NCBI GenBank assembly: GCA_937928165.1
Contig: CALFVT010000003.1
Coordinates: 62,001-126,000, forward strand
DNA: 64,000 bases
Direction of reading: 5' to 3'
Source of the DNA: an uncultured Caulobacterales bacterium
GTDB taxonomy: Bacteria; Pseudomonadota; Alphaproteobacteria; Caulobacterales; Maricaulaceae
Below, in pieces: positions 48,291 to 58,894 of the stretch. Each line of letters begins with the position of its first letter. Position 1 is the stretch's first letter. The notes under the pieces were generated by a model. That model did not search any database. It saw only the letters and a list, made by a program, of their open reading frames with translations, and was not told the DNA's origin. The position numbers and the translations under genes are program-made.

Positions 48291-50018
48291 TTATTTCGCA
48301 GCTTCAATCGCGGCTTCGATTTTTTGTTCCATTGTTGCCATATCATCACCGGCGGCTAATGACTCGCGCATCGTAGTTTCCATAATTTTCATCACCTGCT
48401 CGGCTTTTTCAGAACTAACGCCGTCTTCAGTAGGTGAAAATTGAATATCAAACTTATCACTCAAGACGATATCCTCCGCATTAACGCCAAGCTGCGCAGC
48501 CAAGTCTGTCGCCGTCGCGTCATCAATAAGAATTGTGCTATTATTGCCCTTAGCAATGACAGTACTAAACCGCTTAAACGTTTCTTGATCTAGCTCATCG
48601 TTATCTGTCAAACTATTTGAAATGACCACTGTCCTAATACTACCAATTTCCGCATCTTGGCTTATTTTTCCAGAGGATTTAAGTTTGGCAAGAACGTCAT
48701 CAGTTTTATTGCCGTCCGTTTCAACAAATTGGATGACTTGGCCATTGTCTTGATCAATCGTAAATTGTCCGGATGAGCGCGTAATCTTCTCATAGCCTTG
48801 GATGGTTTCAGGGTTAATCTCAGTTTTAATCCCGCTAACTGGGTCAACTTCAAAGGCTTTGACATTATCGCCGATAATATTCACTTCAACCTTACGGTCT
48901 TGAATAACGCCGTTATTTTCACTGCGGCTACGGACAATATGGGTTTCTTGTTTAGCCGAAACGCCGTCACTGGTTTGCGCGCTCGCGGCGGCCGGAACCA
49001 AGCTGATCGGGGCGTTTAAGGCAAATGTACTTGCCATAACAGCTGTAGCTGCTAATCTGTGGCGTAGCTTCTTCATTGTGATTGGGTTTGACAAAGTCAT
49101 AAGTCTCTCCTTTAGAGGGTGATGGATAGTCAAAGCCAATGCAGGCGCAGAGTTTCGGGGTGCGATCCGTTTCTGCGCCTGCAGGGCGGCTTTGATGAGG
49201 GTTTGCGCATAGGCGCGGCTATTGGCAATATTGCCATTTGCGGAATGATCCACAAAATTTTCGAGTGGGTAATTTAAAACTGTCGCATCACACGCCGCTT
49301 CTTGATCGGCGCGGAAATAGCGCGCCGCATAGTGAATAAGCGGATTCGGCCAATTTGCAGCCCGTAGTCCAAGGGCGGCCAATGATGCATATAAATCCCC
49401 GCGCTTTACATGAGATAGCTCATGAAGAAGTGCATAGCGCTGCTCTTGAGGGGTGAACGCCGTTTCAAAATCAAACGGTAATATAATATGCGGGCGAATG
49501 ACCCCTGCGACTAATGGGCCCGGCGCATCCGGGCTTAGAGTAATTTTAGGCGCTGTCTTAAGGCCGAGCGTCTTGACCATAAGAACATAAGTCTGCTGTA
49601 AGCTTGGGGAAGCTGCTTGTGCATGGTTAAGCCAAATTTTAACACTAAGGTTTTGGCGATATAATTGCCGCGTTATAAATATGACTGCGCCTATACCCCA
49701 AAGAGCGGTCAATATTCCGGCCCCATGAGATGTCCATAATGATGAAATAGATGATAAATTTGTTTGCGGCATTGCCGTCAATATCGCCTGGGCCGTGAAA
49801 GCTTCTGAGGCGGCACTGGGCGGCGGCGGCGCATTCAGCCACGCCAATTCAACCGGGGGCATAAACACCCTTAAAACCGGTAAAGACCATAAGCAATAGG
49901 CGGCTTTTGCGCCAAATCTACGCGCAAAAGGGCGGCGTATCAACAAAATAAATGCCGTTAATATCGCGACAGATAATATCGTCTGCCCGGCCCATATTTG
50001 GAAAACGCTTAACGTCAT
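48291..50018 (-). CDS. BlaR1/MecR1-like M56 membrane metallopeptidase
   Basis: A 575-residue protein. Membrane segments at about residues 8-28, 42-54 and 100-118 precede an M56 zinc-protease domain with HELSH at 199-203 and an E in DQEAACDATVL. A fourth hydrophobic stretch lies near residue 325. The last 240 residues are a hydrophilic periplasmic sensor with no penicillin-binding domain, so a beta-lactam signal is unlikely. M56 sensors cleave their cognate BlaI repressor on signal. It overlaps the BlaI-type gene by 4 bases. Confidence 0.85.
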   Translation of the reverse strand: MTLSVFQIWAGQTILSVAILTAFILLIRRPFARRFGAKAAYCLWSLPVLRVFMPPVELAWLNAPPPPSAASEAFTAQAILTAMPQTNLSSISSLWTSHGAGILTALWGIGAVIFITRQLYRQNLSVKIWLNHAQAASPSLQQTYVLMVKTLGLKTAPKITLSPDAPGPLVAGVIRPHIILPFDFETAFTPQEQRYALLHELSHVKRGDLYASLAALGLRAANWPNPLIHYAARYFRADQEAACDATVLNYPLENFVDHSANGNIANSRAYAQTLIKAALQAQKRIAPRNSAPALALTIHHPLKERLMTLSNPITMKKLRHRLAATAVMASTFALNAPISLVPAAASAQTSDGVSAKQETHIVRSRSENNGVIQDRKVEVNIIGDNVKAFEVDPVSGIKTEINPETIQGYEKITRSSGQFTIDQDNGQVIQFVETDGNKTDDVLAKLKSSGKISQDAEIGSIRTVVISNSLTDNDELDQETFKRFSTVIAKGNNSTILIDDATATDLAAQLGVNAEDIVLSDKFDIQFSPTEDGVSSEKAEQVMKIMETTMRESLAAGDDMATMEQKIEAAIEAAK

Positions 50019-50383
50019 GCTTTTAACCCCTTAACAATCGCCTCTAGCTCTGCGATATCCTTATCGCTTAAAGCTTTACTCTCCGCCAGCTGCGCGACGA
50101 GCGGCGCGGCTCGGCCCCCAAATAATTTATCGACAAAACGCGCCGCCGCTTTGCCGACATAAATATCTCGCTCTATTAGCGGTCTATATAAAAATCTTCG
50201 CCCCTCTTTTTCAGTGCTTAAGGCGTTTTTTTCCACAAGACGCGCTAATAGAGTTTTAACCGTCCGGATGTTCCAGTCTTTATCCCCCGCCAAAGCCGCC
50301 GCGACGTCGGTAGCTGCAATAGGTGCATGGAGCCATACAACTTCCATAACGTCAAGTTCTGCTTGGGATATGCGTAATGACAT
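50015..50383 (-). CDS. BlaI/MecI/CopY-family repressor
   Basis: A 122-residue winged-helix repressor: ISQAELDVMEVVWLHAPIAATDV and WNIRTVKTLLARLVEKNALSTEKEGRRFLYRPLI are family hallmarks. The C-terminal part is the dimerisation and cleavage region. AAGGAAG precedes the ATG. An operator-like CTACA-2-TGTAG lies 16 bases upstream. It is the first gene of the repressor-protease pair and is expected to repress its own operon and targets elsewhere. Confidence 0.92.
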   Translation of the reverse strand: MSLRISQAELDVMEVVWLHAPIAATDVAAALAGDKDWNIRTVKTLLARLVEKNALSTEKEGRRFLYRPLIERDIYVGKAAARFVDKLFGGRAAPLVAQLAESKALSDKDIAELEAIVKGLKA

Positions 50384-56238: not shown

Positions 56239-57615
56239 CTATGCCTTGCCCTTACGGCGGCGCATACGTGATTTTTTAATCAGGCCTTCATATTGATGCG
56301 CAATCAAATGAGACTGAATCTGCGCCACCGTATCAAGGGTCACAGAGACAATAATCAAGAGCGACATGCCGCCAATCAATAAAGCCACAGACGGCGGAAC
56401 ATTTCCGGCCTGCGCAATCACATATTCGGGCAGCACACAAACAAAGGCTACATAAACCGCACCAATAAAAGTAAGGCGAGATAACACATATGATAAATAT
56501 TCTGCCGTCCGTTCACCGGGGCGAATACCCGGCAAGAAGCCGCCGTTCTTACGCAGGTTATCCGCTACATCATCGGGCTTAAATACATAAGGCACATAAA
56601 AGAAACAGAAGAAGATGATTAAAACGCCGTAGAGCGTGAGGTAAAGCGGCGAGCCGTAACCAATCAGCGCCAGAACCGTCGTGAGCACGCCGTTAGACCC
56701 TTCTGCCGCGCCCGCTTGATTTCCAAGCATAATCTGGCCTGCCGTTGCGGGAAGCAAGAGAAGCGAGCTGGCGAAGATCGGCGGAATAACGCCGGCCGTA
56801 TTCAGCTTTAGCGGCATAAAAGAGCTTTCCCCGCCAAAGGTCTTTCCGCCGGCCATTTGCCGCTTAGGGTATTGCACCAAGAGCCGCCTTTGCGCCCGCT
56901 CAATAAACACAATCAAGAAGGACAGCCCGACGAAAAGCACCAAGAGGCCAATTAATAAAATCTCTGAAATCGCATTATTCGCATTCAGTGAAAACGCTTG
57001 GAACAAGGCTTTAGGCAATTCTGCGACAATACCCGCAAAAATAATCAGGGACACCCCATTACCCACGCCGCGAGCTGTGACCTGTTCACCCATCCACATC
57101 AGGAACATCGTGCCGCCAACAAGGGTAATCACCGTACTGGCTTCGAAGAAAAGACCGGGGTTAATCACCGCGCCGGGCGTGCCTTGCAAGGCTTTGGCGA
57201 TGCCGTAGGCTTGGAACGCGGCCAAAAATACGGTCAAATAGCGGGTATATTGGTTGATTTGCTTACGGCCCTGCTCCCCATCTTTGTTCAGCTCTTTTAG
57301 GGAGGGTATCGATTCTTTCATCAAAGTCATGATGATCGACGCCGAAATATAGGGCATCACATTCAAGGCAAATACGGCCATACGCTCAACCGCGCCGCCC
57401 GCAAACATATTCAGCCGGCCTAATAATCCGCCCCCTTGTCCTTCGAAGGCCGATTGGAATGCAGCCATATCCATACCCGGCACTGGAACAAAGGTTCCAA
57501 CGCGGTAAAGGACAAGAATGAAAAGCGTGAAAAGAAGGCGCTGCTGAAGCTCTTTCGCCTTGAAAAAGGTCGAAGGATTAAAGTTTCTTACGAGTTGTTC
57601 GGATGCAGACGCCAT
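56239..57615 (-). CDS. secY: Protein translocase subunit SecY
   Basis: A 458-residue ten-helix channel protein of the Sec translocon. Hallmarks are LYRVGTFVPVPGMD in helix 1, the plug region GGLLGRLNMFAGGAVERMAVFALNVMPYISASI, and KPDDVADNLRKNGGFLPGIRPGERT in the cytosolic loop. The end RRRKGKA is basic. It is preceded by an 87-base gap with a perfect hairpin and tandem repeats, and followed by adk. Confidence 0.98.
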   Translation of the reverse strand: MASASEQLVRNFNPSTFFKAKELQQRLLFTLFILVLYRVGTFVPVPGMDMAAFQSAFEGQGGGLLGRLNMFAGGAVERMAVFALNVMPYISASIIMTLMKESIPSLKELNKDGEQGRKQINQYTRYLTVFLAAFQAYGIAKALQGTPGAVINPGLFFEASTVITLVGGTMFLMWMGEQVTARGVGNGVSLIIFAGIVAELPKALFQAFSLNANNAISEILLIGLLVLFVGLSFLIVFIERAQRRLLVQYPKRQMAGGKTFGGESSFMPLKLNTAGVIPPIFASSLLLLPATAGQIMLGNQAGAAEGSNGVLTTVLALIGYGSPLYLTLYGVLIIFFCFFYVPYVFKPDDVADNLRKNGGFLPGIRPGERTAEYLSYVLSRLTFIGAVYVAFVCVLPEYVIAQAGNVPPSVALLIGGMSLLIIVSVTLDTVAQIQSHLIAHQYEGLIKKSRMRRRKGKA

Positions 57616-57637: not shown

Positions 57638-57669
57638 TTAAACAGACCCCGCATATGGGGTCTGTTTAA
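57638..57669 (-). promoter_or_regulatory. Perfect 13-bp hairpin in the rplO-secY gap
   Basis: TTAAACAGACCCC (57638-57650) and its exact complement (57657-57669) form a 13-base-pair stem with a 6-base loop, about 22 bases before the secY ATG. No T-run follows on the minus strand. It may control secY translation, act as an attenuator, or be an RNA-processing site. Confidence 0.6.
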
Positions 57670-57674
57670 AGATT

Positions 57675-57716
57675 TTAAAGGTCGCAACTTAAAGGCCACG
57701 ACTTAAAGGTCGTTGA
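57675..57716 (-). repeat. Three tandem 14-base repeats across the rplO stop codon
   Basis: Units TTAAAGGTCGCAAC (57675-57688), TTAAAGGCCACGAC (57689-57702) and TTAAAGGTCGTTGA (57703-57716) follow one another directly. The third contains the rplO stop and last codons, and each unit carries the same TTTAA stop on the minus strand. It looks like a recent small duplication at the gene end. Confidence 0.7.
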
Positions 57717-58662
57717 GCATACCTTCGTTCTTTGCCAGCAGATAGTAAAAGCTGACGCGGTCTTTCATACGCTGAGGTTTCATTTCCGTACAGACAGCCA
57801 TAACTTTGGCGTCAAGAACCTCATTATCGTCTTTAAGACCGAGTTTTTTCTTTAAGAAAGCATCCCGAACCGTACTACGCTCTTCTTCGTCACCGCAGGC
57901 CACATATTTCGCGTCGCGGTTTGATAAAGACGCGCCCAAATATTTCGTCAGCGTCATCACAGCCGCTTCAGAGGCATCTGCGTCATAACGAGTCTTGATG
58001 TTTTCCCAATAAGGAAGATGCTTATCATATTCGCCGGACTTTGCTGCCGCTTTCTTAGCAGGTGCTTTTTTGGCAGGTGCCTTTTCAGCCTTAGGCGCAG
58101 CCGCCGCTTTTGGAGACGCTGCTTTGGGCGCAGCCGCTTGCTTAGCAGGCTTCGCTTTGGCTTTTGGTGCTTTTTCCGCCGTTAACTTGGCGCGCTCTGG
58201 CTTATCACTTGAAATCGTTACAGAGCCTTTGGCCGATTCAACAATCTTTGTTGCGCCCGGGGTTGCGCCCGCCACAACCAATTTAACCGCTTTAGACAAC
58301 TCACCGCCGCCAATGAGGCGAACGCCGTCATGGGCGCGGCGAAGAACGCCGGCTTGCACAAGCGCAACAGCGTCAACATCTTTGGACAGATCAAGCTTAT
58401 CCGCTTCAACGGCGCGGTTAAGGGTCGCGATTGACAATTCCGCCCACTTCTTGCGGTTCGGCTTATTAAAGCCCCGCTTTGGAAGGCGCATATGAATCGG
58501 CATTTGACCGCCTTCAAAGCCCTTAATTGCCACGCCTGAGCGTGATTTTTGACCTTTGACACCACGGCCGCCGGTTTTACCTTTACCCGAACCAATACCA
58601 CGGCCAACACGAAGGCGGGCTTTGGTGGCACCGGGATTATCACTTAATTCATTAAGTCGCAT
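57703..58662 (-). CDS. rplO: Ribosomal protein L15 with C-terminal DUF2853 domain
   Basis: A 319-residue protein, about twice the usual L15. Residues 1-150 are a normal L15 ([54 protein letters not shown]). Residues 152-209 are an Ala/Lys/Pro linker like a histone H1 tail. Residues 211-319 match my memory of the DUF2853 family: [23 protein letters not shown] and [14 protein letters not shown]2853 proteins are normally separate small proteins of unknown role. The frame is continuous and the domain is well formed, so this is a genuine fusion. It lies between rpmD and secY in the usual order. Confidence 0.9.
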
Positions 58663-58705: not shown

Positions 58706-58894
58706 CTACTCTTCAACAATCTCTACCATATGGGCAACCTTGTTGATCATGCCCCGAACAGAAGGCGTATCTTCAAGCTCGCGCACGCGGCCAATTTTAC
58801 CCAGACCTAAACCAACAAGGGTTTGGCGCTGGTCTTTCGGACGACGGGTCGCTGACCCTGTCTGCCGGACTTTCACTGTTTTCTTCGCAGCCAT
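58706..58894 (-). CDS. rpmD: Ribosomal protein L30
   Basis: A 62-residue L30, complete. [32 protein letters not shown] is diagnostic of the bacterial form. It lies 11 bases after rpsE and 43 before rplO in standard spc order. L30 is absent from some bacteria; here it is present and intact. Confidence 0.96.

Follow-up and report, generated by a model that had tools for sequence, protein, structure and literature searches.

An L15 gene with a C-terminal DUF2853 domain

The window, the whole stretch of 64,000 nucleotides that we analysed, carries at 57703-58662 an rplO gene in which ribosomal protein L15 is fused to a DUF2853 domain in one frame. The first-pass annotation had placed the fusion at exactly these coordinates with the strand unstated; it lies on the minus strand, and the plus strand over 57703-58662 is interrupted by stops. 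The locus has the following features:

57703..58662, minus strand: rplO coding sequence, L15-linker-DUF2853, 319 aa, with an ATG start and the stop codon within the coordinates
58213..58662, minus strand: L15 body, residues 1-150 (TIGR01071, and PF00828 at residues 76-149)
58036..58212, minus strand: Ala/Lys/Pro linker, residues 151-209 (composition, and pLDDT below 50 at residues 162-210)
57706..58035, minus strand: DUF2853 domain, residues 210-319 (PF11015, AlphaFold2 model, likeness to 2pyq)
57724-58011, minus strand: Pfam DUF2853 match, residues 218-313
58706..58894, minus strand: upstream neighbour, a 62-aa ORF from the ORF list, which we take by eye to be L30-like
56239..57615, minus strand: downstream neighbour, a 458-aa ORF from the ORF list, presumably SecY-like (by eye)

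The L15 part matches TIGR01071 over residues 2-148 (E 1.6e-38, 131.8 bits against the NCBIfam cut-off of 77.95). The Pfam search of the tail that the first-pass annotation had proposed returned PF11015 at residues 218-313 (E 3.8e-25, 88.9 bits against the gathering cut-off of 25); the alignment spans profile positions 2-97 of 101, a complete DUF2853. The stretch between the two had been described as an Ala/Lys/Pro linker of 58 residues. The composition is as described (23 Ala, 16 Lys and 8 Pro), and the measured length is 59 residues (151-209). Translation is unlikely to start internally at the DUF2853 domain, since the linker contains no Met and the domain has its first one at residue 236. 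The fusion is not an assembly artefact because the same fusion is present in 17 other genomes among the 99 that we searched in the same GTDB family; named records that carry it include Algimonas arctica KCTC 32513 and Litorimonas cladophorae KCTC 23968.

Between rplO and the SecY-like gene, we noticed by eye a perfect inverted repeat at 57640-57667 (11-base arms, 6-base loop), which is absent from the output of the terminator scan. Elsewhere in the window, two adjacent minus-strand genes at 48291-50383 are presumably look-alikes of a BlaR1-type membrane peptidase and a BlaI-type repressor, as judged by eye.

Predicted structure of the linker and the domain

AlphaFold2 modelling on 20 L15 fusions gave pLDDT values below 50 at residues 1-55 and 162-210 and higher values elsewhere, which predicts a disordered linker and a folded C-terminal domain. 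The DUF2853 domain alone, modelled on 109 sequences, reached a pLDDT of 94.5. Its predicted fold resembles 2pyq (Foldseek E 2.6e-5, TM 0.80; VIA Z 15.9, rmsd 2.4, 109 residues), the only clear structural relative in Foldseek and VIA. The entry 2pyq (Jann_4075) is itself an uncharacterised DUF2853 protein. To our knowledge DUF2853 has no known biochemical function, and in PMC full text we found one paper that names the family, in a table. Ca2+ binding was considered on account of EF-hand-like structural neighbours and rejected, the matches (Foldseek E of 1.1 or more, VIA Z of 6.5 or less) being under the stated helical-bundle level.

A profile search of the window's genome (2.61 Mb, 96% complete) gave a single L15 match, and DUF2853 is therefore expected on the 50S subunits unless it is cleaved. 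The earlier suggestion that a flexible arm displays the domain on every 50S subunit agrees with the predicted disorder of the linker and with this sole L15 match; it holds if the tail stays uncleaved.

DUF2853 on S2, membrane and phasin-like proteins

The window's genome has four DUF2853 matches: the L15 fusion, an S2 fusion, a TM-HhH-DUF2853 protein and a stand-alone copy of 113 residues. With four copies in the genome, we dropped the L15-only reading. The S2 fusion (PF00318, 318.8 bits) carries the domain at its C-terminus (PF11015, 100 bits), and the profile search found one S2 in the genome. Since L15 and S2 are each single and both fused, both ribosomal subunits should bear DUF2853 unless it is cleaved. 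In the membrane protein, of 413 residues, the N-terminus holds a TM segment recognised by eye and the C-terminus DUF2853 (82.3 bits); it also contains an HhH and AKP stretches.

Relatives also have DUF2853 fused to phasin-like proteins. We use only the label phasin-like because the profile scores are weak and below the Pfam cut-off: carrier L043 scored 17.0 bits with PF05597 (gathering cut-off 28.8), carriers L052 and L057 had no listed PF05597 match up to E 0.1, and another carrier matched TIGR01837 with an E of 0.0075. On all of these, that is L15 and/or S2, the phasin-like and the one-TM carriers, DUF2853 is C-terminal and stands behind low-complexity linkers. The carriers are large or surface-bound: the ribosome, the inner membrane and proteins resembling a granule coat.

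It had been proposed that the domain may act on ribosomes, nascent chains or polysomes. As a role special to the 50S subunit, nascent chains or polysomes, this is not supported, as DUF2853 is also on S2 and a membrane protein in the same genome, relatives bear it on phasin-like proteins, and the tails of L15 and S2 may bear HhH instead. The common factor is the tail rather than L15.

The TM-HhH-DUF2853 gene was found by eye behind an OmpA-like gene at six of six loci (L003:2733-3188, L186, L175, L146, L158 and L162); a small peptidase-like gene and then a small membrane protein, both named by eye, come after it at five of the six. OmpA-type NCBIfam models matched the OmpA-like neighbour in the window's genome below their cut-offs, among the 25 of 41 matches listed. 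One TM-type protein (L206) has two serial HhH copies ahead of DUF2853. We also observed that NuoE of the window's genome (L229:658-1740; C4:86847-87068) ends in an AKP linker and an HhH, which is 80% identical to the HhH in that genome's TM-HhH-DUF2853 protein.

Around the stand-alone copies (12 loci, the neighbours of nine read by eye) no shared partner was noticed, and like neighbours occurred only within two closely similar pairs. This bears on the idea that DUF2853 or HhH is a handle on abundant assemblies that a protease or chaperone adaptor recognises to control their turnover or storage. The C-terminal position of the domain in the fusions read and the presence of abundant assemblies among the carriers would suit such a handle. 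We consider it very improbable, given that no adaptor or protease link was noticed by eye around the 12 stand-alone copies and that the one-TM protein and the stand-alone copy suit it less well.

Distribution of DUF2853

Within the GTDB family, DUF2853 was found in 43 of 99 genomes and in 8 of 19 genera. These eight genera (Hellea, Litorimonas, Algimonas and relatives) we call the clade; it comprises 47 genomes, four of them (G039, G042, G047 and G085) without a DUF2853 match. The eleven sister genera gave no DUF2853 match, and L15 and S2 were detected there as usual. The taxon survey that had been suggested for the fusion found L15-DUF2853 in 18 of the 99 family genomes, S2-DUF2853 in 9 and both in 4, as counted in fetched frames, with an L15 match present in 92 of the 99 and four short or broken DUF2853 matches left outside the carrier classes.

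Phasin-like DUF2853 carriers are present in 22 of the 47 clade genomes and TM carriers in 37. The TM-DUF2853 gene accompanies ribosomal DUF2853 in 22 of 23 genomes, versus 15 of the 24 other clade genomes (p 0.010, uncorrected for kinship). Phasin-like DUF2853 showed no significant association with phaC (18/22 versus 16/25 clade genomes, p 0.21). PhaC_N had no match in the window's genome and a match in 85 of the 99 family genomes. As no phasin-DUF2853 fusion was found in the window's genome either, a PHA granule is improbable as the partner in that genome.

DUF2853 proteins had been described as small and stand-alone, and outside the group this is what we saw. In the class, DUF2853 was detected in 8 of 289 genomes with the window's genome included; in the other seven (of 288) all frames are of 106-157 aa. 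At least 81 of 249 genomes of the order had a match. Among the matches listed outside the family, we fetched 20 frames, three of which were TM-HhH-DUF2853 proteins from a single genus and the remainder stand-alone; a named locus of the TM-HhH-DUF2853 type is from an Aquisalinus MAG. Scanned for DUF2853, named genomes yielded 73 loci, mostly from Hellea, Litorimonas, Algimonas, Robiginitomaculum and uncultured Caulobacterales; NCBI taxonomy assigns these four genera to Robiginitomaculaceae. Stand-alone copies were also found in MAGs that bear labels such as Saprospiraceae and Thiotrichaceae, and seven plasmid records had matches with 36-44% identity. The window's domain is like its family and 2pyq in sequence (88.9 bits) and predicted fold (Z 15.9), whereas the members that we saw outside the order are in short frames or ORFs and here it is a tail domain of L15, S2, membrane and phasin-like proteins.

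DUF2853 and HhH replace each other on ribosomal tails

Where the L15 of a clade genome lacks DUF2853, it still has a long tail in most of the genomes read, ending in HhH or in bare AKP repeats. We compared the tails of L15 and S2 in 45 of the 47 clade genomes, calling HhH with our own five-sequence profile (E < 0.01). Both tails were readable in 38 genomes; in G027 and G085, L15 runs up to a contig end, and in G084, S2 is split into two frames. The 38 pairs of tails, given as L15/S2, were distributed as follows:

DUF2853/HhH: 9
HhH/HhH: 8
DUF2853/DUF2853: 4
HhH/DUF2853: 4
DUF2853/none: 4
none/HhH: 2
DUF2853 plus HhH/HhH: 1
HhH/none: 1
none/none: 5

At least one subunit has DUF2853 or HhH in 33 of the 38 genomes, and both subunits in 26. 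The module is nevertheless dispensable in evolution, since five of the 38 are without either domain and in seven more a single subunit bears one. HhH and DUF2853 were found in series on L15 in one genome (loci L116 and L201). Hellea balneolensis combines an HhH tail on L15 with DUF2853 on S2. The Pfam family PF14520 scored 32.2 bits (cut-off 27) on one L15 tail and 24.0 bits, below the cut-off, on one S2 tail, and did not match a third kind of tail. In a tree of the HhH domains, which has 67 columns and long branches, there are two kinds of L15 HhH tail, one near the TM protein and NuoE and the other grouped with L21 and S2.

HhH already has a list of carriers resembling that of DUF2853, because the NCBIfam models of L21 (PRK12278), S2 (PRK12311), NuoE (PRK12373) and phasin PhaH (NF045508) match HhH tails, mostly under their whole-protein cut-offs. 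Like the window's L15, these proteins, which include ribosomal proteins and a phasin, consist of a core, a low-complexity linker and a small domain at the C-terminus; such HhH tails are also used by the DUF2853 clade. The window's L15 differs from them in that it has DUF2853 at the end of its tail, and none of the four models matches it; no HhH family appeared among its Pfam and NCBIfam matches up to E 1, and no HhH-tailed L15 model was among the NCBIfam matches found. It may work like the HhH-tailed ribosomal proteins, and it is not a member of their group. An H3TH match within a PhaC appears in the accessible part of PMC8686332. The S2 'sunset domain' variant NF051451 is similar by its name, S2 plus an extra domain, whereas the S2 of the window's genome scored 290 bits against its cut-off of 710 and the match ends at position 339 of 382.

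The tail site differs between neighbouring genera

The L15 frame has a median length of 319 aa in 39 clade genomes versus 176 in 52 others, and the L21 frame of 126 aa in 36 clade genomes versus 236 in 52 others. These lengths run from stop to stop with upstream codons included, and two fragments (L15 of G069, L21 of G056) are left out. We read the best-scoring 30 of 89 L21 loci: the clade L21 was bare and ended at the L21 core in 11 of 11, versus an AKP tail in 18 of 19 sister-genus loci, nine of these with HhH; one locus was frame-broken. The five sister-genus S2 tails that we read had no HhH or DUF2853 match.

We infer from this that the tail site moved from L21 to L15 and S2. We do not claim an ancient, class-wide L21-HhH, because the HhH profile matched none of the 12 L21 loci read in the wider class. 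Likewise, 16 long-L15 loci outside the family and within the class (L294-L308 and L313) had no DUF2853 or HhH profile match; their L15 tails are about 16 to about 100 residues long, and the end of L313 reads N. In the 50S subunit uL15 and bL21 have a small common interface (PMC4881015, as excerpted). A shift from L21 to L15 would therefore leave the arm in the same region.

Movement and constraint of the domain

In a tree of 65 DUF2853 domains, a single clade of the L15 copies was rejected (p-AU 7.4e-5), and DUF2853 therefore moved between the tails of L15 and S2. A well-supported clade (100/99) mixes 11 L15 and 10 S2 domains. A single clade of the S2 copies was not rejected (p-AU 0.30), and the placement of all L15 and S2 domains on one side of a branch had a support of only 47/0. 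A quick tree of 178 domains instead places the L15 group of the window next to the phasin-like copies.

In pairs of L15 fusions, which share sequences, the dN of the DUF2853 domain was lower than that of the L15 body in six of eight and higher in two. The sole pair with the window's protein has a slightly faster domain (0.133 versus 0.104). Because many pairs have a saturated or nearly saturated dS, dN/dS ratios were left aside. DUF2853 on L15 is under roughly the same constraint as L15 itself, an argument against a neutral appendage. A neutral, ratchet-like accumulation of tail domains, or their cleavage before assembly, would leave them without a ribosomal role; the turnover of domains between tails and the five of 38 clade genomes with none could be read in this way. 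With the lower dN in six of eight pairs (overlapping in sequence, dS near saturation) and the gain of DUF2853 on both subunits set against it, we regard this as quite improbable.

The same constraint could point to a function intrinsic to the ribosome, as first proposed, in translation, subunit joining, hibernation or on nascent chains. Such a function would fit the presence of the domain on proteins of both subunits, and in the chloroplast ribosome a C-terminal extension of uL15 is located near the tRNA exit site (excerpt of PMC5071890). Nevertheless, the same domain on membrane and phasin-like proteins, the replacement of DUF2853 by HhH on the tails and the eleven sister genera without a DUF2853 match make it distinctly unlikely.

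Charge of the arms and nucleic-acid binding

HhH domains commonly bind DNA, and the L15 linkers have a strong positive charge (+7 to +16 in 20 rows). The AKP arm with its HhH or DUF2853 might tether ribosomes to mRNA or the nucleoid, much as PHA granules are attached to DNA by PhaF and PhaM: in the excerpted text of PMC5658603, PhaF has a histone-like, DNA-binding AAKP tail and PhaM links granules to the nucleoid. Such a tether would suit a group with mixed ribosomes and nucleoid, and in a relative, Caulobacter crescentus, the two are homogeneously mixed (PMC7858274 and PMC9827431, both as excerpted). However, the S2 linkers carry a negative charge (-2 to -10 in 10 rows), and DUF2853 is near neutral on L15, S2 and the phasin-like carriers (median charge +1, +1 and 0, versus +10 for the TM version). 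No nucleic-acid-binding relative stood out in the Foldseek and VIA fold lists, which is weak evidence. These charges count against the binding of nucleic acids by DUF2853 as the leading explanation, and we retain it as a rather unlikely rival. The likeness to PhaF and PhaM is that a phasin joins the granule to something else, PhaF by a basic AAKP arm; the difference is that there, as far as the excerpt goes, the arm itself binds DNA, whereas here it bears a folded domain and ribosomes are among the carriers (PMC5658603).

DUF2853 as a putative docking module

Tentatively, the explanation that we find most plausible is that DUF2853 is an interchangeable docking module on a flexible arm, which would tie ribosomes to a putative partner common to the carriers. 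This reading is favoured because the same domain is found on unrelated carriers, DUF2853 and HhH take each other's place on the tails of L15 and S2, DUF2853 has moved between L15 and S2 and is constrained, and the TM gene co-occurs with ribosomal DUF2853. At the end of the arm, DUF2853 would bind the common partner, which could be DUF2853 itself, the stand-alone DUF2853 or another ligand. Ribosomes would then be held near this partner, for example at the membrane protein, whose tail is probably cytoplasmic, or at granules. The domain would dock rather than act on catalysis or on nascent chains, and the docking site would have shifted from L21 to L15 and S2. A single ligand for all carriers is uncertain since the TM version differs in charge.

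An extended form of the docking module, in which DUF2853 and HhH pair with themselves or with each other and so strap together 30S, 50S, phasin-like granules and the one-TM protein non-covalently, would amount to a modular ribosome-docking code; we consider this unlikely. If it were true, ribosomes would be cross-linked or anchored by exchangeable tails that are relocated in evolution among L21, L15 and S2.

We found no published description of these fusions in PMC, by title and abstract start, with subscription journals largely outside this search. Ribosomal proteins are highly conserved, yet in this group both subunits carry exchangeable globular tail domains, and the tailed protein differs between neighbouring genera: in some it is L21, in others S2 and the L21 neighbour L15. 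The fusions provide a testable setting for DUF2853 and a natural system in which a removable tail may set the position of the ribosome.
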